A stretch of DNA of 64,000 nt from Microbotryomycetes sp. JL201. Its lineage: Eukaryota > Basidiomycota > Microbotryomycetes. Shown piece by piece: positions 19,795 to 36,167 of the stretch (positions are counted from its first letter, which is position 1; each line of letters opens with the position of its first letter). The notes below the pieces were generated by a model. It made no database searches and was not told the origin of the DNA. It was given only the letters and a program-made list of their open reading frames with translations. The DNA is taken from positions 59,877 through 123,876 of the forward strand of contig JAQYUZ010000049.1 in assembly GCA_033819885.1 (NCBI GenBank). The letters are read 5' to 3'. The position numbers and the translations under genes are program-made.

Positions 19795-22170
19795 TTACAA
19801 CTGACCATCCTCGTACATCGACCAAGCTCGCTTCTTCGCCCGTTCCTCCCGGTCCTTGACTTTTGACGCCGTCTCAAAAGCAGCTCTCCTTTCATGATCC
19901 CCGTCCAAGCTTTTTTTGCCGCTACCTCGAGTCGAGCGAGATTTTCGTGAACGAGACTTTGTCGACTGGAGTCGTTTCAAAGACGATAAAGTCCAATTTG
20001 CTGGATTACGAGCTCTGACGATTAAAGGCTTGCTTGACCATTGGCCAATCCGGACCAATTTTTGTGGACAAACTTTGCTCTCGTTCTCTCCGCTCGTGTC
20101 AACAGAACCTTGTTTCTCTGCGCCACCACATCGATCGTTCTCGTCGCTGAAGCCAGCTGAGACTGTCACGACGAGTCGGACTCGAGCAGCCTGATTAGGT
20201 TCAGTAATCTTGACATTTTTTCTCAAGTTATGAGCGATCGCTCCGGCCGTCGAACGAGGATTGTTGCCCGTCGAATGTTTGAACTGAATTCGGTTATACT
20301 TGATCGTCACTCGTTGACCTCTCTTGGCGTGTTGGGTTTGATTAATGTCGACGTATTGAGGTTTGACGTTTGTGGCCGTTGAGCGAGCTCGAGAGGCGTT
20401 GAACTGCAGTAGTGGGACGGGCAGAGCGGGTTCGGTGCATGTGATAGCCGACAATTCGAAAGTGAATGAAGGGACAGGACGCGATGATGGCAACACCGGC
20501 GTCTCGAGAAATGCATCGTCGTCGGGAAGACGCAGAGAGGCAGACAGTGACTGCAAAAGAACGAAGGATCAGCAGAGACTCAATATCGGCATAGAACTGC
20601 AAGCTCACAAGGTAGTTCTTCTTGTAAGCAACGTGACAGCCTACAGCGCTATCGTATTCAAAGCCTGGGCCAACGAGTTCAGGAGACAAGTCAAGTCTGG
20701 CACGATTACCCGGTCAGCAGTCGCGAACGGCCCAGCTGCAATCGCAGCTCACGCTTCACCCAAGCTATCCACCAAAGTGACTTGTTCTTGAAAAGTCTCA
20801 AAAAAGGGACCGCCGCCGTCGCGCTCGTACTCGGCACATTCCACCTGGTCATCGTCTTCGTCATCGGACGATTCCGGCCCCGCAAAGCTCTCGCTGTCGA
20901 GTTCACGCTTTCGCCTTTGCCTCTTCGCTCGAAAGTGATCTGTATCCTGCTGGTTCGATCTAGAGCGCAACACTTGACTTGGCTGCGGCTCAGACGTAGG
21001 CGGAGGATCCGCCTCGGAAGGTTCTCTCGCTTCTTCCAACCAGGCATGAACTGGCTCGTTGGCAGGCGCGCCGATTTCCGATGGAGAGGTATAAGCCGCA
21101 GGGAGTGAAGACTCAAACTTGGGAGCCGTTTCTTGCAAATACGACGCGCGATTTGCGCGAGGCGTGATGAACTCGGTCGATGCCAAGTTTTGCTCTGACG
21201 TTGCGACCTCGGCAACCACTCGAAATCGGGGTGCGGCCTCTGAAGGTCCTCCATCGTCGTCTCCGTCAGACGCCATCGGGTCAGCCTCGACTTGGATTGG
21301 GCTGGACGAGCTGAATGCGTGACGGACGAATGACGCGAACAGCTTCTTGTTCTGAGGTGGAGTGCGGTACGGGTTGCCTGAGGATGGTTCTGTCTCAATT
21401 CCAGGTATGAGCTCTCTGTCCGCATCCATCGACTGCAAGGGTTTCAAGGATTGCGAAGGTGGAGGGGTACTGAGCAGCGGCGCAGGTGGATACCCGGCGG
21501 GTCCGTGCGTGCTCGAGCAAGCAAGATTGGTAGCATCACCGGTGAAAGCAGTCTGATGGTGCCGCATGGGCGTCATGGGGAAGCGCATAGGCGATGTGCT
21601 GTCGAGACGGTGCACTGGCGACGTCAAGAGCCAAGTCGAAACACCAGGAAGCGTACGACTGTTGCCACTCGAGATGCAGTAGTGAGACGGGGAGCAAGAC
21701 CGTCCTGGCGTCACTGTCATCCATGATGACCAGACTTGACTCGAATCGTCCCAAGCCCCCCTGTTCATTGGCGGACGCCCAGACGCGCAAGACATGGGCG
21801 GCAGGCCTGCGCGTCAGAAGGTCCGTGCACGAAATGCGTCGTATAATGAAAGCACTTACGGCATGGCGTGGAGGGTACTGGATTGAGCACGTGACGCGCC
21901 ATTCGACTCGTGAAAAATTGTACCTTGTCGAAAGGGGTCGCCTGGCTGAGGAGTAGTGAGCGCAGAGCCACGACGAGCTTGCACGGCTTCAGAATTGTCA
22001 GTAGTCGTTCGCTCGCTCGATTCCGGGTTGTTTGAGCCTGTGAGAGGTGAATGACGCGTGATTCTAGTCGAGTCCGGGTCGCCTGCAGAAGCAAACCAGT
22101 CCGTCAGAGTCGAGCGTAGTGGCGTCCCGACCAGTGTAGACCACATCGAGCCCAGTCGACCCGATGGCAT
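19795..22170 (-). CDS. NDT80/PhoG-like transcription factor
   Basis: Five exons: 22170-21860, 21806-21540, 21469-20753, 20696-20609, 20550-19795; 712 aa. The C-terminal third carries the NDT80/PhoG DNA-binding pattern (PF05224, p53-like Ig fold): CHVAYKKNYL-SLSASLRL, YVDINQTQHAKRGQRVTIKY then NRIQFKHSTGNNP, a RLVVTVSAGF strand, and LVRIGQWSSKPLIVRARNPAN. The first ~450 residues are disordered, Ser/Pro- and acid-rich, apart from a hydrophobic patch in exon 2 (RTVLLPVSLLHLEWQQSYAS). The tail is highly basic. Family members act in meiosis, nutrient response or autolysis; which applies here is unknown. It converges on the DUF1295 gene, 230 bases away. Confidence 0.8.
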
Positions 22171-24830: not shown

Positions 24831-26168
24831 TCAATTGAGAGCATACCTGGCACGCTGGGCCCTGGTCATGCAGGTCTGTTGGCCACTCGGCAGCTGCACA
24901 ATGTGATTCATCTCGAGGCCCGCGTAATCATGTGGCACAGCTCCGGATATCTCCACTGCGTCACTTGAATGATACCTGATGGCGACTATCTCACGCAAAA
25001 GTACGGCAGCAGCATTGGATCGCAGCTTGAGCTCCTGGAATTCCTTGATCTCTGGCCTGCCGCCGTGTACCACGCTGAGCTCGTGCCGTTTCTCGTCAAT
25101 TTCAGCCCTGAAGGCTTGCGCGCGTTCGTGAGACTTCCAGACTTCGATAGTAGTCACATTTGAGAAGTCAATAGAGCATGCCTTTCAAAGATCGCTCCGT
25201 TCAGCTTTTCGACCATTTTGGAAGAAGAAGAACTGGCCACGTGGAATGCTTACATGTAATTTTCTGAGTTGTCTTGGCTGCATGTCTGCCTTGTTAGAGA
25301 TTTCCATCTGTCAAAAGTCGTCAACATTACTCATACCCGCCAATAATGAGCGATGCACCTGCCTCAAAAAACCAATACAAGAACTTGGCGTACAAGTGTG
25401 TCAACGCGTTCCTTTCTTTGCGCTTCATCTGCCCGTCGGGGATATACATGGCCTCGTCACCGGCTACCCGCGATGACCAGCGCCATTTGAGCGACGCAAG
25501 CGCCCATTCGATCAATGCAAACTCCCTTGAAATGGACGAGTCCAATTGCTTCGGCACGCCATCTTGATGAAATATTCCACTTGGTGGAAACTCTTTGACA
25601 AAATTGAGCATCAACTAGTGTGGGTCTGTCAGCCCTTGCCAAAGCCAAGTGATTTGGCAAAACGCACAGAGTCAAACGCAGACTAAAAAAACGAATGGAA
25701 TTTTTGCGTTTCAGTCAGATTATACTGCGGCCGATTGGAATACTTCTTGCCTTACAGCAATGCTTCCCTTCAGCTCTTCAAAACAACGACTCTCCTCGTA
25801 TCGCTGCAACTGACGTAATTCAGGATCCGATGGAAAAGCAATGGATAAACTCATCAGAAGCTTACGATGATGGCAAGGTCGACCAGTTCTGCCTGTCCCG
25901 CGTATCTCTGATGAAATTCGGTCTCTTTGTAGTTGCGACGGTTTTCTACGAGATTGTGATTTTCGCTGCTGACTTTGTCGTGGTAACGCTCGACCGCGCG
26001 GAGGTACTGGCGGCGCAAAGCAGTCAAGTCGGCTTGTTGAGCATTTCTTCCATTTGCGCTCCAGTCAAGATATGTTGTATAAAGCGCCAGCCTCTTTTCA
26101 GCAGAAGCGAGGCTGCGGTTGAGGTAAACAGGTTCCGGATCCGCGGTGTTGAACACGTGCAGCGTCAT
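24831..26168 (-). CDS. Array paralogue A, unrecognised helical protein
   Basis: Six exons, every one a multiple of three: 26168-25866, 25809-25756 (54), 25682-25668 (15), 25614-25363, 25307-25254 (54), 25181-24831; 342 aa. I do not recognise the family. It is hydrophilic and mostly helical, with no signal peptide or membrane segment. Landmarks shared with its neighbours: exon 1 ends in a helix (VERYHDKVSSEN, LVDLAII), exon 4 starts LMLNFVKEFPPSGIF and ends KFLYWFFE, the last exon has TIEVWKSHERAQAFRAEID and ends QLPSGQQTCMTRAQRARYAL. That ending closely matches gene B (KLPSGHGALVTNAQRRSYNLF), so A and B are sister copies. The intron after exon 4 begins GCAGGT. First member of a minus-strand tandem array. 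Confidence 0.65.
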
Positions 26169-26485
26169 ATCGAAACCTGCAATGCTTCAAAAGTGACAAA
26201 ATCACTGTCAAGAGCAGAGCTGAGCGCTGGTCACACTTGCAAGCGAAAATAACACCGCGGGGTCTCGAACGTGGCTCCTGATGCCTGCGATGAGTCGCAG
26301 CCTTTCCTTGACTGGACTTGAATATTTGCTTCAAGTTGGAAGGTGAGGGATTTGTGCGTTCCTTACAAGCCAAGCTGTAGCATTTCATCTGCGCACGCGT
26401 CAATTCCGCCCACCTCGTTGCCGTGGCGGTCATGAAATTTCAATGAGCTAGAGCACTTTGCAGCAAGTCCATCACTGTGATCAGC

Positions 26486-27723
26486 TTAGAACAAGTTGTA
26501 ACTCCTGCGCTGAGCGTTTGTTACGAGTGCGCCGTGGCCACTTGGAAGTTTGACGTGTCTTGCTGTCAGTGTCAAAGCGTCAGAAGCTGAGGTGGCAGAA
26601 TCGCGAGCGATTGGCGCTTTGAGCATAGCAGAAGGCACCACTAATGGCAGAAAGTTGGCATTTGAGAACATGCCATCTCGGAACCGCCTGCGCTCGCCCT
26701 CAATTCTGTTTTTGAACCAATGTGCTCTTTCTTCGCTGTGCCACACTTCACTAATTGTGGCTGGAGACAGATCCACCGCAAAAGTCTATTTTCAAAAATC
26801 AATGCGTGAGTATTGCGTCCGAAAACTTTAGCTCACAAGTCGTTTTTGGCGCTGCTCGGTCGTAAGCTTGGAGTCTTTCAGGTGAAGAATCTTCATCTAA
26901 AGCCGAGATTATCATGGCGGGAAAATTTTCATGCGCAAGGTGGAACTCACGTCAAAGTAGTAGTACAAGAAGTTTGCCAGCAATTTGGCGCACAATTGCT
27001 TTTGCGAGTCTTCCAAAGTACCGTGCCGCAGGCGCATGCCCGAATCTTGGTCACTTTGGCCACACCAGCGCTGTCTGAGCAATTCGAGGACAAAATGAAC
27101 AACGTGGATCTCGCGAGCCAGCGCAGGCTCCTCCTCCTTGACCGCAGGGAAAAGTCGACTGTGCTGCAGAATCCCGTCTATGAAATGATCTTCCAGCTGC
27201 AATGCTGCCTTTGTTCAGTTCTGCTGCAGCAGTACATGCCGGGACATTCATTGGACTCACACAGTCAATCTGATTCTGCATGTAGCCCAAGTTGTCAAGA
27301 TCGGGCCAGGCAGACGACAAAACACTGCACGCACCGCCACGCTTGTCAGAGCGCTCTGCTCGTCGTAACAGCGCTCGATCTCAAGTCGCTGTTTGAGACT
27401 GTGTCAGTCATACTGTTTTGAGCGGTCAAGCTACGCACCATAATGGTCAAATCAATGTGCTGGGCAAAGTCGCCGTATTTTTTATGCCACTCGCGGTTTC
27501 TGGGACTTCCAGCTGGTCCAGCCTGTTCCCGCAACTCAAAGAACGGATTGGCTGCTCTGGCAAGCGTGTTGTATGCAAATTGAGCCTCCGCGTAATATTT
27601 GGAGCTTTTGTACTGCTGCTTCACGTAATTTGTGTACGCCGCCAGCCGCTGCAACGCTTCAGCGACTGAGCGATGACGGTATGCAAGGTGACTATTGTCG
27701 AGCTGAAACGCAGGTGGCGACAT
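26486..27723 (-). CDS. Array paralogue B, unrecognised helical protein
   Basis: Six exons in phase 0: 27723-27439, 27388-27335 (54), 27275-27261 (15), 27196-26951, 26896-26837 (60), 26785-26486; 319 aa. Same exon plan as genes A and F. Exon 1 holds RSVAEALQRLAAYTNYV and ends in LTIM; exon 4 has LEDHFIDGILQHSRLFPAV and PALAREIHVVHFVLELL and ends FLYYYFD; exon 5 is a basic amphipathic helix (KILHLKDSKLTTEQRQKR); the last exon has ISEVWHSEERAHWFKNRIEG and ends KLPSGHGALVTNAQRRSYNL. All introns are short GT-AG. No known domain, signal peptide or membrane segment. Function unknown. The start at 27723 was chosen because it gives the same exon-1 length class as its paralogues. Confidence 0.65.
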
Positions 27724-28003
27724 GACAAGGCACAGGACAGAAGTAAATGGCAGAATCGTGAATCGACAAAAGCACAGCGCCCGGAGCCTTGTGCGATTGA
27801 CTCCTATGCTGAGATTGACTGAGACCGCTAATTTTAGCCAGATATTGAAAAGAAAAAGAGGCAGAGTGATTGTGCTAGACTTGCACAGAGCTGCCCTGCT
27901 ATTCAGTAACCATCCGATTGCGCTGACGCTTGGTTGTCTCTGCTGCATGTCCGCTGCCGAGCAGTGTCAATCCAACGTGACCGGTGGCCTTCTCTGAAGC
28001 ATG

Positions 28004-29212
28004 CTATGGGGCTTCTGTGCGTTTTGACACGGGCTTTGCCAGCATTCCGTGTAGCTTGACCACGTTGAAATCATTTGAGGTGACATGAATGTGATCCTGA
28101 TTCAACCAGTGAGTTCGTTGCTGAACACAGGCACGTTCAACTTCTTGAATCTGGCTAGGATCGGCCCAAGTTCGTTTCATTACGCTGTAGTCCGGGACAG
28201 AAAGCTACGACACAGCGAGTCAGGACAAACTCGCTGGTAAAAGCCACCCTGATGTGAGAACTGACCATTTGCTTGCGCTGCCTTCGCGTTGACAATTGTG
28301 TGCGACCGGGTTCCCTCAATGCGAGCTGTAATTTTTGTATGAGTGAGACTGAAGCTTACAAGTAGTCGCTTCTCCTCCGTCTTACCTCATAGTACCACTG
28401 CAGGAAAGCTGCGTAGAGCTCGGCAATGATTTCCATCTCTCGCTCAGGCAGTGTTGAATCCGAAATTGTGGAACCAATGTGATCGAGAACTTTGTTGATT
28501 GCAAACGTCGCAACATGACCTTCGCGAGCCAGCGCGGGCTTGAGAGATTTGACAACCTCAGCCGGGAAAATTCGATCGAAAATGACACCGTGCTCTAGAC
28601 TATGATAGATCTGCGAGCATGTAGCCAAAAAAAATTCAGACGATGCTGTTAAGCACAGCTGCAGCGGAGCGTATCACCCGCTTCTGTATCTGCTCCCACT
28701 CTCTGAATGGTTAGCCTCTGCTTGATGCCTTTCGGCAAGCATGACATACCGCGAGGAAGCTGGCGTCCCGCATCGAAAAGTAGAGCTCCTTCTTTTGCAA
28801 AACGCTGTGTGAAAAGGGTCCGACAGTCAGCGGGCCGTGAGCAGCTGTGCCCATATTCTGAGCTTGCCATCACGGCCATGTCAAATGATGTGGCACTGGC
28901 TTGCTGATCACTGAGCTTTTCGAGCTCTTTATTTGCTTTCTCAGCGTAAAAGACGCGCAGACTTGACAATTGCTGCAAGTGGAACGGCAAAGGCGTACGC
29001 ACCAGGGCAGTTATGTAATCTTGCAGACGGTCGCGTGCGGCTGCGGCCGTCAGGATGTTTTCGCTCGGGTGCCTGGTTTGACAGTCTGTAGGGCTGAGCA
29101 GGAGGTTTTGCTGTTGGTAGCTTTACTGGGTGCTCTGGCCAGCACAGCTTTGCGACGCAGGAAATTGGCTCCTCAGTACTTGCACCGCAGTACCAACCTA
29201 CGCTTCGCTCAT
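28004..29212 (-). CDS. Array paralogue C, unrecognised helical protein
   Basis: Model: 29212-29202 (11 nt), 29093-28868, 28804-28750 (55), 28700-28678 (23), 28610-28386, 28325-28266 (60), 28204-28004; 266 aa. Exon 2 reads AAAARDRLQDYITALVRTPL, like gene F (ARARLVRYIQALETP), and ends DMAVM. The core exon has LEHGVIFDRIFPAEVVKSL and PALAREGHVATFAINKVLDH, ending FLQWYYE. The last exon starts LSVPDYSVMKRTW. The intron at 28867-28805 starts GCAAGC where gene B has a GT donor at the equivalent site. The 55/23-nt exon pair departs from the usual 54/15 but stays in frame. The 5' end is uncertain: no in-frame ATG lies upstream of exon 2, so an 11-nt first exon is proposed. Confidence 0.55.
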
Positions 29213-29356
29213 TATATATATGAAATCCACGGCACTTCACCGATATTTTGATTCCAAGAAAGTTTGTATTCTACGGTTGCTGAAAGTCCACATCAAACCC
29301 ATTCTTGAGCGCTGTCGAGCCGTGATCCGAGCTGCAAACGAGCTGGGCAACGTTCG

Positions 29357-30420
29357 CTATGCGATATGCGCATCGTCCAGGGAGAACTTGCTGAGCGATC
29401 CCATTGTGGCGTCGGTCGAATCGTTTGAAACCCTGCGGCGACGAGCCGACTTTTTCATTTGCTGAAACGCTACCCAAGTTCCACTGAGAGCCGAATCAAT
29501 GGAGCACTCTTGCAAGGAGTACTCTACAGTAATTTCTCGTTGCATATGAATCAGGTCATTGAGGCTCTCCAACAGTCGAAGTTCAGGATTCATTGAGCGC
29601 GACGAGTGACGGCCTGCCTCGGCTGGAGAAGACTGGTGCTGAAAGCGCGGATCTACTTGTAGACAGTGTCGAGGTCAGTATTTTCCGGTGCTTGCAGATC
29701 TTGAAGACATACCGTCCACAGGATTGAAAGAATCTGGGTGCGCGCGACCGACCTGAACAGAAACATTTGAGCGACCTTTGTTTCGGACGACAGGACCACG
29801 TGACCAAGCTCACTCCGTAACGGTAAGAGAACCAGCTGGAAATGAGCCCGATCTCGATGGTGCGCTTGCGCCATTCTGACAAAACAGTCCAATACTGTCT
29901 TTCTTGATTTCGGCAAGTATTTATCACAGCGCGGCATCTTGGTTATTTACAGCCTGAGCCAGGCTTTCAGGCACATCGCCGAAGACCTGGTGTGCAAAAG
30001 ACGTGTATTCTAGCTCGAATGCCAGCGTGACGGGCGAATCACGCAAGTACTGGACTGTGGTGTGCGGAACCATAACCTGTTTGAAGGTGCGAGTCAAGGC
30101 GAGACAGTCTTGTATTGGCGTTGATGCTTACTTGACCAGAAAGAAGCTTCTTCCGCCTCTGGCTCATCTGCCAAAGCAAGAAAGATCCTCCAGCGTTGGA
30201 TTGACTGCGCAAAGATGATGGGTTAGGCTTTGAACTCGCTGTTTGCACTCATCACTTGCGAGGATCCACATGCTCACTCCCATACCAGAGGGGCCCGGGT
30301 ACGACATTCTTGAAAAATCTGTTCCAAAGCAGCCATTTCATGGGGGTGCGAGCTACGGCGGTCCCGGAGGAATCGCTGGTAGCGCTGCAATAAGTCTGCA
30401 GGCAATTCTGTGCTTGACAT
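29357..30420 (-). CDS. Array paralogue D, divergent unrecognised protein
   Basis: Six exons: 30420-30278, 30204-30132, 30076-29951, 29894-29814, 29752-29713, 29655-29357; 253 aa. It is the most diverged member of the array. Shared landmarks: exon 1 DLLQRYQRFLRDRRSSHP resembles the N-terminal helix of C and F; FAHQVFGDVPESLAQA aligns with FQHVFPAEINRALAAA of F; exon 4 ends SSWFSYRYG where paralogues end QWYYE or YYYFD. The C-terminus (after DPRFQHQSSPAEAGRHSS) is Ser-rich and unrelated to the others. Introns are short GT-AG. Function unknown. Membership rests on these local matches and on position and strand. Confidence 0.5.
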
Positions 30421-30990
30421 CTGTTTATTGTGTCTCTTTAGAAGCGTCAAACTCTCAAGACGACCACCTGAAATAGCTACGACTCCTCGCGGGCAAGACA
30501 TGCTGTGCTCAAGTGCTGTGCTGGCTCAAGGGCTCTGACTCCTCGCGGACGGATGTGGCGTGCTCGAATGCTGTGCTCATACCTTTTCTTCTTCTTCCAA
30601 AACAACACCTGCTAAGCGGGTGGGCAAACCTCGAGCTCTGGTGCTCAGTCATTTCAGCAGCGTAATTGCACCATAATTCTGCTCGGTCGCATGTTTGCGT
30701 GCGATGCCTTGTGAGACGCACCATTGCCTACACCCCTTGGCGCCACTGAAGAAGTCGTGCTGGACATCGGCAGCCCCGGTACGTATCGCAAGCTGGCGCT
30801 GGTCAGATACAGTGTTTCGACATGTTTTACATGCAGGTTTGCAAGAATTCGACCACCCCGCAACCGCCGTACCAGTGATCAGCCTGACCCACAGCGCAAA
30901 CGACCGGAATAACCTTGCTCTTTGCTTTGGGCCACTCGTCTGACGCCTGCAGCAGCCCGGCTCTGCATCAGCATTCCCCAGAAAGATACA
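30421..30990. other. Intergenic region before the palindrome
   Basis: About 570 bases between divergent array gene D and the left palindromic gene. A short direct repeat occurs at about 30481-30560: gactcctcgcggg / gactcctcgcgga, each followed by tgctgtgctcaag-like or tgctcgaatgctgtgct sequence. The palindrome arm begins near 30915. No gene seen. Confidence 0.4.
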
Positions 30991-31537
30991 ATGCAGACAC
31001 CCTCGCCAGCACCGGGCAGGCGCCATCCGCCCTCGCCGCCGCAAACCGGCACCTTTTCTTTTTCCGTCGCCGACGATTCCAACGTCGCTGCCGTTCTGGC
31101 AGTCGCCAAGCAAAGATGGCACATCGCAACGGTCAAAGTCGACGTATGCGATCCTCTGCTGACAACAAAACCTCTCAAATCCCTACCGTCCCCACCGACA
31201 AGGGCAGTGGATTGGGCGCGCGTAGAGCGCATGAGCCTCGCGCTCAAACAGTCAAATACTCCTCATTTGCGAGTAGAACTTACTCTGGCTCTGACGGACT
31301 AGCTATGATCACGCTTGCTCTGCCGACTCTTTGCAGGTGGAACCTCAAGGCGCCGGACGTCTCGACTCATTTCAACACCGGATCCGTCGGCCAAGACGAC
31401 AAGCCTAGTCACCAAGCTTTCCTTCTCGACTCGAGGCATATATTGGAGGCCGCTGGAATGGCGTTGGCGGGCCTGCCGGGCGCGCGCGCAATAATTTCCT
31501 TGCACATCAACGACGCCGCTACGTTGCGGCCCGACAA
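30915..31537. repeat. Left arm of long inverted repeat
   Basis: This arm runs from about 30915 (TTGCTCTTTGCTTTGGGCC) to the centre near 31538 and is the inverted counterpart of 31540-32168 (TTGTTCTTTGCTTTGTGCA on the minus strand). Identity varies: roughly 79% in the last 62 nt of exon 1 and 93% over the 68-nt intron, by direct comparison. The innermost part is a near-perfect stem around 31512-31565 with a spacer of about 20-30 nt. Each arm carries one gene copy. Confidence 0.85.
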
Positions 31538-31577
31538 TCGCCAGCCTATGCAACGTACCGGCGTCGTAGACGTGTAG
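30991..31577 (+). CDS. Palindrome gene, plus copy; unrecognised protein
   Basis: Exons 30991-31268 and 31337-31577; 172 aa. The ATG at 30991 lies in sequence matched by the twin's ATG. Exon 1 encodes a Pro-rich start (MQTPSPAPGRR) then VAAVLAVAKQRW, PLLTTKPLKSL, PPTRAVDWARVERMSLAL. Exon 2 encodes WNLKAPDVSTHF, LLDSRHILEAAGMALAGLPG and ends GVVDV. The intron begins GCGAGTAG, whereas the twin has GTGAGTAG; the frame requires this junction. No known family, signal peptide or membrane segment. The conserved MALAGLPGARA segment is encoded by the CG-alternating centre of the palindrome. It runs tail-to-tail with, and overlaps, the minus copy. Confidence 0.6.
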
Positions 31578-32092
31578 AACAATTTTTGCGCGCGCGCCCG
31601 GCAGACCGGCCAGAGCCATTCTAGCGGCCTCAAGGATGTGCCTCGAGTCGAGAAGGGATGTCCTTTCTGTGAGCTTGCCGTCTTGGGCGACGGAAGCGAG
31701 AGTGTGGGTCTTGACTCGAGAGACGGCCGGCGCCTTGAGGTTCCACCTGCAAAGAGTCGGCAGAGCAAGCGTGATCAGAGCTAGTCCATCAGAGCCAGAG
31801 TAAACTCTACTCACAAAAGAGGAGTTTTTGACGCTGTGAGTGCCTGACTCATGCGCTCTATACGCGCCCAATCAATCGCCCTTGTCGGCGGCTTCAGCAC
31901 GGATGCGAGGGGTTTTGTGGACAAAAGGGGATCGTTAATGTCGACAGAGATGGTGCCCAGCAGCCATCTCCGCTTGGCAGCTGCCAGAGCAGCAGCCACG
32001 TTGAAAGAGTCGGCGGCGGGAAAACGTGTCGGCAAGCCAGTCTGCGGCGGCGAGGGGAGTCGACGACCTGGTACAGGAGAGGGTGTCTGCAT
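31299..32092 (-). CDS. Palindrome gene, minus copy; extended by antisense read-through
   Basis: Exons 32092-31815 and 31746-31299; 241 aa. Exon 1 is exactly as long as in the plus copy (278 nt) and encodes MQTPSPVPGRR, NVAAALAAAKRRW, PLLSTKPLASV, PPTRAIDWARIERMSQAL. Exon 2 starts WNLKAPAVS and has LLDSRHILEAARMALAGLPGARA. Where the plus copy stops after GVVDV, this copy has VVDVQGN and continues another ~75 codons across the palindrome centre, reading the antisense of the plus copy's exon 2 and ending at 31299. The extra C-terminus (Arg/Ser-rich) therefore has no homology to the twin protein and may be non-functional. Family unknown. Confidence 0.5.
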
Positions 32093-32168
32093 TGTATCTT
32101 TCTGGGTAATGCTGATGCAGAGCCGGACTGCTGTAGGCGTCAGACGAGTTGCACAAAGCAAAGAACAA
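31540..32168. repeat. Right arm of long inverted repeat
   Basis: Inverted counterpart of 30915-31537. Homology starts about 75 bases upstream of the minus-copy ATG (at 32168) and extends to the shared centre near 31538. Exon and intron structure is preserved. A net 6-nt length difference lies in exon 2. Confidence 0.85.
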
Positions 32169-33501
32169 AAGGGGCGCGACACGGCGGCGGCAACAATGGC
32201 GACAGGGGCAAGAGAACAAAACTCGGGCATGCATCCCGCGTCTGATGTACCAAGCCACGTATCCTACTTGGCGGTACCCTCCATCCAGCTGCTCCAACTC
32301 GCTACCTTAGTCGGGTGGCTCGACGGCGGCTGCCCCGACTGCGCACGAGGGTCCGTGCACCACAGACAGTGGCCCGAGCTTGACCGGTCCGTCTTGAAGC
32401 AATCCGTCGCGAGCAATCACGCTGGCGTAAGCGTGACTTGCTCTGCAAAGCAACTGTTGCGAGCTCGGGAGTCGTCTGGTTGTGCGCCGGATTACCGCGG
32501 GGCGGCATCGGACCTTTTTGCAAGCTCAATTGTCGCGCGCCGCGCCATCCGCGAGTCGAGTACCTCAGAATGGTCGAGCCGAGAGACACAAAGCGTACGA
32601 TCTACACTGTCGCGACTGGCTCGATAATGCAACATTGAGGCGCGCGCGCCGCCCGCGTCACCGGCCAAGCTCGTTCGAACCGCTCCGCCGTTGGTCTGCC
32701 GACTGCAATACCGAGTAGCTCACACATGGCGGCAAAGCATCGTCTTGGAGCGTGGCATACACTACCCTGGACGTCCGCGCGCGCAGGCGACCGGCCCGTC
32801 GACGCGGTCGATCGATCGAGTTCGGCCCGAGCAACGAACCGTGACGACACAACACCAGTCGACCGCGCACTCTTGAGCATTCGGGCATGTGATCGAGTCG
32901 ACCCCGGTGCGTTGCGCATTCGCAACATGTCTGCAGCGGCTGTCGACGCGCTATCGACAGGGGGTTACCCTCCGAGCGACATTGCATCCAACACCAGAGT
33001 GTCCTCCTGTGACATTAAGGCTCTCTTGTGCCCGGGGCGCCTGACTGCTTGACATTGAGTGCTGAGCCCCGACTAACGCTTGCCGATTGGCGCGCTCTGG
33101 TGCCGCCTGCTTTCGTGATTGACCTATCGTCAACGGCTGAGCGCGACCGAGCAGAAACCTCACGCATGGTCGCCGAGTCAAACGAGCTGCAGTGCTGGCT
33201 CGACCGTAGTTGCAACGTTCAAAACGAGGCGCGAAACAGCGCTGACGCGCCGCATCCGATTGTGCGTATACTTCATAGTGAGGGGGCGATATAAGCTTCG
33301 CGTGTTGTTCGTATTTTTAAATATCAAGACAGGCAATGTCAACGGATTGACGCACCTCGCGGCTATCCCGAAGGCCCATTTGAGCTTTTGGGCATATGAA
33401 ATCAGCATCAGGGTAACGTGACAGCAGCAAGCTTTGTTTTCAAAATAGCACGCGGGTATCTGTTCTTGGAATCAATTATTCTAAGAGGCCAATCTTCGAG
33501 T
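32093..33501. other. CpG-dense spacer without a supported gene
   Basis: About 1.4 kb between the minus palindromic gene (and its upstream repeat) and array gene F. It is CG-rich with runs such as gcgcgcgcc (32641) and cgatcgatcg (32808-32819). Several open frames exist (plus strand 32726-33052 and 33028-33294) but none shows recognisable protein character, splice-linked partners or similarity to the array. It could hold a decayed gene or promoter DNA. Confidence 0.45.
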
Positions 33502-34706
33502 TCAGAGACCATAGCGATTGCGTTGACGCTTGGTAGTCTTTGCCAAATGTCCTTGACCAACCACCGTCAAGGCCACGTGTGACGAGTTGGTATGATTCAG
33601 ATCGTGTCCGCTTGTCTGTCCTTCTTCGTGATTGCGGTCTTCTTTCGTGTCGAGAGAAATTGGTTTTTCGAGCTCAGGCCTCAAAGAGACGCGGTTAAAG
33701 CTGACTTGTACCTCGATACCGCCTTGGCGGAACAGCTTCTGACGATCTCGGGTGTACGCCTTGCGCACTTGTTTGAATTCTTGCTCGTCAGGCCAGAAGT
33801 GGCTCAGCGCGCGATAATCCGGGGCGTTGAGCTGGGGCAAAAGAGAATGTCAAAAACTTGACTCAAACCTCGTCCTCAGAGCATGATACTTGCCCAGCGG
33901 TCATGTTGCTCTTCCTGAGACAAGTGTATCGCTCCAGGCTGAGTCAGGGCCAGCTGAAATGAGAGATGATGAGACCTTGGCTCGCTGGCATCTCATTTTT
34001 TAACTCACATAACAGTACCACTGCATCAATGCGCCATGTACTTTTGCCAAAGCGGCAACGTCAGGCTCAGTCAAAAGACTGTTCACCTTGTTGACAACTT
34101 GATCGACAATGAACGCAGCGACGAGCCCTTCGCGACGCAGAGCTGCCGCAAGTGCCCGATTGATCTCGGCCGGGAACACGTGCTGAAAGTAAATGCCGTG
34201 CTGGAAAGCATGCTCGAGCTTCTCAATCGTCAGTTTACCGTAAAACAGAGACTTGCCAGGGCTGAGCTCACTAGCTGCTTTTGTGTCTGTTTGGTCAAAA
34301 CGTCTAAAGGTCAATCTGTGGCCCAGGTCGAGGAAAGTGCTCTGAACCCACTTCTGGATCCCCGCTGTGATGAATTTGGAAGAATAAGTGCTTTTCTTCG
34401 GTGCGCTGACAGCGTTGCACCCGAAAAGTCAGCCGTAAGCAAATTTTCTCAAGTGCGGTCAGCCCTAACCATCACCGCCATCTCATAGGCCGTCTGACTG
34501 GGTTCTGCGGAGGCATCGATGCGTGCCAGCGAAGCACGAGCTCGTTCAAGGTAGAAGACCCGGTATGTGTCAAAGTAGTGACGGAGCTCGGAAGGAAGTG
34601 TCGGCGTCTCGAGTGCCTGAATGTAGCGAACAAGACGAGCGCGGGCTGCTCCAATAGAGCGGATCTCAGCGTTGGCCCTGCGAGCTTCCTCCCCTTCTTC
34701 TGCCAT
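33502..34706 (-). CDS. Array paralogue F, unrecognised helical protein
   Basis: Six phase-0 exons: 34706-34470, 34405-34352 (54), 34286-34272 (15), 34218-34009, 33953-33894 (60), 33831-33502; 301 aa. Exon sizes 2, 3 and 5 equal those of gene B. Exon 1: GAARARLVRYIQALETPTL, RVFYLERARASLARID, ends YEMAVM. Exon 4: LEHAFQHGIYFQHVFPAEI, ALRREGLVAAFIVDQVVN, ends LMQWYCY. Exon 5: LALTQPGAIHLSQEEQHDRW, similar to C (LALREPGRTQ). Last exon starts LNAPDYRALSHFWPDEQEF, matching C (LSVPDYSVMKRTW), and ends in a basic TKRQRNRYGL. C and F are sister copies. Intron 5 (33893-33832) has a GCAAGT donor. No known domain; probably soluble. Confidence 0.65.
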
Positions 34707-35026
34707 GTATCACAGAGGCGCGCTGGGAAGGGAACGAATGCTTTGCGTCCAGTGGTCGCATCATGGGGCTCGATCCCTCGAGGAGTCACCTAGCGCAGTC
34801 AGGCTGTGCTGCACTGCATGTGTCATGCAATGGAGTCAAACATTCTGTAAAAACCTCACGGTTCCTTCCTTATGGTCAGTTTGAGTGGTTCACTGTCACG
34901 TTGAATCAGCTTTTTCGGGTCCATGCCCCAAACCCGAGTCTCCGTAAAGACTCTAACGGACCACGAGGCACATACAAGCCTTTCAAAATAATCGAGTAAT
35001 CATTGCAAAACTCGATTAAACATTTT

Positions 35027-36167
35027 CTACAAATAGCGCCTGCCTTGAGCGCGCGACAGTTCAGCGTTGAAACCGCTTGGGAGGATGCGCATGCGCGAAC
35101 GAACGTGTGTGTCTCTGCGAGACAGAGATTGAACACGTCGCGACAACTCATTCTGCCCTAAAGAGTCAATGCCGTCCAACACTGCTTGTTCGAGATGGAT
35201 AGGCACGAATGGCTCGGAGTCAAAAACTCGATTGAGCAAATGGGCGCGCGTAGCGTTGATGCTCGTCGACCAGTTGTGCTTGAATTTGTCGAGAAAAACG
35301 TAATTGGGTACAAGATCCTTGAGGGCTTGGTCAGATATAAATTGCTCGTCAGAGTCGAATGCTTACATTCATCTGCGCGTTCTCGGCAGTGCTCGTGAGT
35401 CCGGCTTGATAGTACGCCCACTTCAGAATCATGTCAGCAAACGTGCCAGGTGCGCAGGCAAGAGAACTTTGGCGCAAAGCTCGCACCTGCATTCGCCAAC
35501 GAAAGAACGACGCCAGCACTTGGGCCACAGTCTTGCACTGAGCGCCGTTCATTTTCTTTGGATGGCATGATCCATGCAGTTCAACCAGCACCGCTTGAGC
35601 CGCTTGAAGTTCAACGTTTCGGCGAGCCTGGACCGCATGGCGGCGTCGAACAATTTCAGAGCTGAGCGGCTCAACGGTCTGGGGAGGAAGTTTCACGAGT
35701 CCCCGGTAGATTTCGCCTTCAAGAATCAGTTTCGCTTCATCGAATTGCTCCTGAGGATACATCCGTGACAAAGCGTCAGTAAAGGCAAGAATGAGCCTTG
35801 GCTGCAGACGGACCTTCAATGACAAAGTCGTGTTCAACTGATTCAGCCACCTTTGAGCTTCCTTCCCCTGCAAGTAAAAGATCAATGATGGCAAGCCTGG
35901 GGACAGCGGGTTAGGTTTGAGCGCAAGGCTTACCAAGATCCATAAATCTGTTTCTCGCTCGTTCAACGCAGTGCTTTCTCGCTTCAATTCAACTGCCGTA
36001 GCCATCTCGTCGAGTGTCTTGCCTAGATCTGCAGGCGTCCGATGGGCGCCCCGCACTCGTCCGAGTCGCTCAATGAATAAAATGTACTCCTCGAGTTTTT
36101 GGCGAGGCGCTGTCGCAATGTGAGCCTTGACGCCCTCATTGACGTTTTCGCCCACAGATGGCATCAT
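35027..36167 (-). CDS. Array paralogue G, unrecognised helical protein with fused exons
   Basis: Four exons, all phase 0: 36167-35934, 35867-35487, 35420-35367 (54), 35317-35027; 319 aa. Exon 1 contains PRQKLEEYILFIERLGRV and then LDEMATAVELKRES, so it covers what exons 1 and 2 encode in the paralogues. Exon 2 is long (381 nt), mostly helical and ends ASFFRWRMQ at the site where others end QWYYE/YYYFD. Exon 3 (WAYYQAGLTSTAENAQMN) is the 54-60-nt exon. The last exon starts DLVPNYVFLDKFKHNW, matching C (VPDY) and F (APDY), and ends basic. Function unknown. It closes the array and is divergent to the large disordered-protein gene. Confidence 0.6.

Follow-up and report, generated by a model that had tools for sequence, protein, structure and literature searches.

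The stretch analysed here, hereafter the window, is 64 kilobases (kb) of DNA from Microbotryomycetes sp. JL201, and genome searches were run over the 17.15-megabase (Mb) assembly of this strain. It carries an array of six neighbouring genes on the minus strand (A, B, C, D, F and G, Table 1), which an initial annotation had described as six tandem paralogues with a kept exon architecture. Five of the six were found to be homologous same-strand neighbours with common intron positions and a common C-terminal tail, whereas D is linked to them only by a family-like tail after its stop.

Five homologous genes in the array

To define the genes, exons were joined by hand from the sequence and then compared with a splice-aware profile alignment that permits introns between codons only. 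Homology was evaluated by leaving out each gene, building a profile from the rest, and scoring the DNA of the omitted gene with introns allowed; 64 stretches outside the array within the window (32 places, both strands) served as controls. Because A, B, C, F and G each score above the best of the 64 controls, these five genes are, as judged from sequence comparison, one family. D scores below its control maximum, and the six-paralogue description is therefore supported for five genes, by profile scores and introns, but not for D.

Table 1. Genes of the array and neighbouring features in the window. Leave-one-out profile scores are followed by the control maximum in brackets; nt, nucleotides; aa, amino acids.
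Feature	Position	Strand	Exons (nt)	Protein (aa)	Score (control maximum)	z	Basis and deposited model
Gene A	24831..26168	-	303/54 (or 48)/15/252/54/351	342 (340 with 48-nt exon)	101.2 (69.6)	6.1	hand-joined model; intron 4 GC-AG; deposited P0002 (truncated)
Gene B	26486..27723	-	285/54/15/246/60/300	319	151.8 (77.7)	9.7	hand-joined model; deposited P0004 holds exon chain
Gene C	27899..29212	-	conserved exons at 28868-29098, 28750-28791, 28678-28698, 28386-28610, 28266-28325, 28004-28204		150.7 (65.5)	10.8	splice-aware profile fit, phase 0 imposed; tail search
Gene D	29294..30420	-			53.1 (63.3)	0.9	body unsupported; tail-like stretch 29294-29356
Gene F	33502..34706	-	237/54/15/213/60/330	302	126.0 (66.0)	8.6	hand-joined model; intron 5 GC-AG; deposited P0003 (differs)
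Gene G	35027..36167	-	234/54/264/54/291	298	106.9 (68.4)	5.7	hand-joined model; micro-exon joined into following exon; deposited P0001 (same except first Met)
Inverted duplication	30915-32168						between D and F
NDT80/PhoG-like reading frame	19798-20568						left side of array

Protein identity among the members is low (17-34%), as had been annotated. Pairwise BLASTP comparison matched C with F (34%, expectation value (E) 4e-42), A with B (27%, 6e-23), B with C (25%, 6e-11), A with C (25%, 9e-5), C with G (20%, 7e-4) and B with G (24%, 0.003), while B-F (E 0.040), A-G (0.31) and A-F (4.7) were insignificant and no alignment was reported for F-G. An unrooted tree placed A and B on one side and C, F and G on the other, with C and F closest (C+F in 98 and C+F+G in 99 of 100 bootstraps).

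The coordinates given initially for A, B, F and G splice as described into proteins of the tabulated lengths, and all 19 introns of these four hand-joined models lie between codons, in agreement with the phase 0 claimed for the exons of A, B and F. The claim of fixed exon sizes stands for the third exon, a 15-nt micro-exon that is separate in the six-exon genes A, B and F, but less so for exon 2 of A, which is possibly 48 rather than 54 nt, as both the deposited model and the profile alignment use an acceptor 6 nt downstream. The micro-exon is altered in C and fused in G, which has five exons and no separate micro-exon. An extra intron inserted by the profile fit in exon 1 of B is missing from the deposited B chain. 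The sequence blocks described as shared were likewise found in part of the family: exon 4 ends in QWYYE in C, YYYFD in B and YWFFE in A, and the last exon starts with VPDY in C, APDY in F and VPNY in G, but exon 4 ends in QWYCY in F and RWRMQ in G, and the last exons of A and B start differently.

Among the deposited proteins, P0001 (OIV83_005656) is identical to the G model but begins one methionine later, and the micro-exon peptides SAFDS of A and NQIDC of B are present in P0002 and P0004, respectively. P0002 is cut short, P0003 departs from the F model in the micro-exon and has no exon 5, and P0004 (OIV83_005654, 26486-29674) is chimeric, joining pieces of D, C and B but lacking the N-terminus of B.

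Common intron positions and C-terminal tail

Introns were mapped on a protein alignment built without exon data. Those of A, B and F fall in columns 109, 127, 132, 221 and 241; C has the same pattern except for 126 in place of 127 and 133 in place of 132, and G except for 239 in place of 241 and no intron at 132. Four intron positions are thereby common to all five genes within 2 columns, and the intron 3′ of the micro-exon is common to four of five, where the exon choices for C and for exon 2 of A had been guided by the relatives and are not independent in this comparison. The 24 introns compared are 49-76 nt long. Three of them, as modelled, start with GC instead of GT, namely A intron 4 (25362), C intron 1 (28867) and F intron 5 (33893).

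Inspection of the C-termini found a further family feature that the initial annotation had missed, a tail of the form (T/S)xxQ(R/G)x(R/S)(Y/M). A, B, F and G all end with HV or HI, a turn (LPSG or VGQG) and then (T/S)xxQ(R/G)x(R/S)Y. In C the tail follows a TAG stop codon (28004-28006) and runs down to 27899; a profile built without this stretch (27899-28003) recovered it with an E of 5.9e-5, M replacing the final Y. In C and D alike, the family tail runs on in frame past the TAG.

C looks altered in other respects as well. Its two small exons, hand-joined as 55 and 25 nt, broke the frame, and 42 and 21 nt gave the best profile fit, in which phase 0 of the five introns is imposed by an alignment model allowing phase-0 introns only. 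The first conserved exon has no in-frame ATG ahead of its last residues, and the start exon is unsure; on visual inspection, C might begin with a short exon further upstream, at the ATG at 29212. An extra 3′ intron of 42 nt also fits C in the profile alignment, and the TAG may reflect such an extra small 3′ intron, readthrough or a truncated copy.

For D, the tail-like stretch lies directly after a TAG (29357-29359) and was recovered with an E of 0.43 in the tail search. A tail-only profile, the bounds of which were set after the first tail search had been seen, gave D 33.2 bits versus 27.9 for the best control, and none of 128 half-overlapping controls was as good. When the alignment could pass through stops and frame shifts, the full length of D scored 134.6, which was equalled or exceeded by 1 of 128 controls. 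Taken by parts, the exon-1 region is at chance level (72/128 controls as high), the exon-6 region including the tail was matched by 5/128 controls, and the exon-4 region by 3/128, but this last hit maps close to 30309, the wrong gene end for an exon 4. Because the body is at control level and the tail is the only support, D can be no more than a decayed or strongly diverged copy, if it is a member at all.

Divergence, distribution and protein properties

Across the 10 gene pairs, the proportion of synonymous differences (pS) was 0.71-0.82, that is, saturated, and that of nonsynonymous differences (pN) was 0.46-0.62. The ratio of nonsynonymous to synonymous substitution rates (dN/dS) had an infinite dS in seven of these pairs, and the values of the other three (0.40-0.56 at dS 2.2-2.9) are not trusted. 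Mismatches increased from the second to the first to the third codon position in nine pairs (all except B-G), a pattern that the protein-guided alignment itself favours. Since synonymous sites are saturated, fast divergence is indistinguishable from old age, and the duplications may be old rather than fast-evolving. Nevertheless, exons of 201-351 nt are open in all five genes despite this saturation, and because long exons stay open at such divergence, this indicates past constraint on the five proteins.

When the five family members were searched against the assembly, every match at E ≤ 10 was in the array. Among 5.8 billion proteins, those of the array matched only JL201 proteins, namely four deposited ones, in searches that require shared 5-residue words and that, in two of three cases, were limited to the best ~8000 candidates for scoring. 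As far as searched, the family is confined to this locus and strain. No known domain had been seen initially, which agrees with the database comparisons: for A, B, C, F, G, two D frames and P0004, all Pfam matches were below the curated cut-off (E 0.062 or worse), none of the five aligned members matched NCBIfam at E ≤ 1, and the lone PDB sequence match had an E of 0.95. No homeodomain Pfam match was found in the array proteins, the five homeodomain matches of the genome being on other contigs. None of the papers retrieved in literature searches is, judged by title, devoted to the array locus.

By hydropathy, no membrane segment was found in the five proteins (highest 19-residue Kyte-Doolittle mean 0.60-1.27). 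Nor did hydropathy, the one measure used for a signal peptide, detect a hydrophobic N-terminus (11-residue means over the first 35 residues peaked at 0.30-0.63, with the N-terminus of C uncertain). Each protein has 1-4 cysteines. The predicted structure models consist of helices, with two short strands in the tail of B, at mean predicted local distance difference test (pLDDT) values of 52.2 and 50.2; Foldseek comparison with these low-confidence models listed several helical-repeat proteins, all weak (best E 0.52). We consider it probable that the array proteins are soluble, intracellular and largely helical, and that each ends in a short turn followed by a basic QRxRY-like tail.

Origin of the array and its surroundings

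We tentatively read the array as a birth-and-death family of orphan genes that lie in tandem on one strand, are restricted to one lineage and would encode a helical binding module combined with a docking tail. In this scheme, one ancestral intron-rich gene would have been duplicated repeatedly at a single locus, and the copies would have diverged far in sequence while retaining the intron sites and the C-terminal tail, with D decayed or lost. We infer that the helical body may bind changing partners and that the unvarying tail may dock all copies onto a shared partner or onto nucleic acid; a turnover of this kind would be more in keeping with recognition or genetic conflict than with metabolism. 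A more specific version, in which a family with a fold of its own was born in one Microbotryomycetes lineage and diverged by conflict or recognition, and in which every member docks to one partner through a constant hairpin-and-QRxRY tail, appears improbable. As to the undescribed system proposed initially, the evidence reaches no further than one orphan gene family.

Several results weigh against a birth-and-death family restricted to one lineage. The genome search with G finds only G and misses its own neighbours, which means that more diverged copies may have escaped, and the protein searches are blind to relatives without shared words and, in two cases, to those outside the best ~8000 candidates. 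In addition, the body of D is unsupported by the profile, the deposited models and those built here differ over F, C and D and at the end of A, and the pLDDT values of both structure models are low.

The array could alternatively be a local duplication of an old, known helical family with a housekeeping function that has passed beyond sequence recognition: helical proteins easily lose sequence similarity, the saturated divergence permits old age, and the weak Foldseek list does hold helical-repeat proteins. We regard this as somewhat unlikely, though it deserves serious consideration. That the locus is mostly a graveyard of pseudogenes with only one or two functional members is less probable still; C without a clear start and with a TAG ahead of its tail, and D, unrecognisable except for the tail, would fit, but A, B, F and G are complete open exon chains with tails. 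Least probable, and in our view very unlikely, is the tandem duplication of a domesticated or decaying gene of a mobile element or virus, encoding for instance a helical protein of the gag or nucleocapsid type. The helical character, the size of ~300 aa, the restricted distribution and the inverted duplication inside the array are compatible with such an origin, whereas the common introns, including the micro-exon, are unlike a recent element gene, and the genome searches found no dispersed copies. Moreover, no gag or zinc-knuckle Pfam family was matched at E ≤ 5, no separate zinc-knuckle motif search having been made, and no viral fold was matched at E ≤ 0.001 with what is a poor model.

A birth-and-death family at one locus also resembles known systems in part. 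Fungal tandem birth-and-death families likewise show same-strand neighbours, common introns, low identity and one or two apparently decaying copies, but the array has no recognisable domain and no match outside JL201 in the searches run. The wtf poison-antidote genes of fission yeast are similarly diverging, clustered, multi-exon and confined to one lineage, yet they encode membrane proteins, in contrast to the array proteins as judged by hydropathy. Secreted effector clusters of plant-associated smuts are tandem, orphan and diverging too, whereas A, B, F and G lack the hydrophobic N-terminus and are poor in cysteines.

If transcribed as modelled, the array would be a compact case of the growth and decay of an orphan family at one locus. 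Members whose proteins no longer match significantly in pairs (A and F, F and G) still have intron sites in common, and the short tail marks a possible member, D, whose body defies alignment. The tail and the intron map together could thus provide a handle for relatives that plain protein searches miss.

The surroundings of the array are ordinary fungal genes where Pfam matches were found: 13 of the 30 long reading frames scanned in the window have a match at E ≤ 0.001, including multicopper oxidase, mitochondrial carrier, UBX, NDT80-like, alpha-amylase, polysaccharide deacetylase and P-type ATPase. The inverted duplication between D and F is large and imperfect, with arm pairs of 305, 125 and 107 nt that are 80-84% complementary. 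It holds two facing copies of a reading frame beginning MQTPSP, unrelated to the family, and a genome search found no copies beyond those two. To the left of the array, the NDT80/PhoG-like reading frame is of the DNA-binding type.
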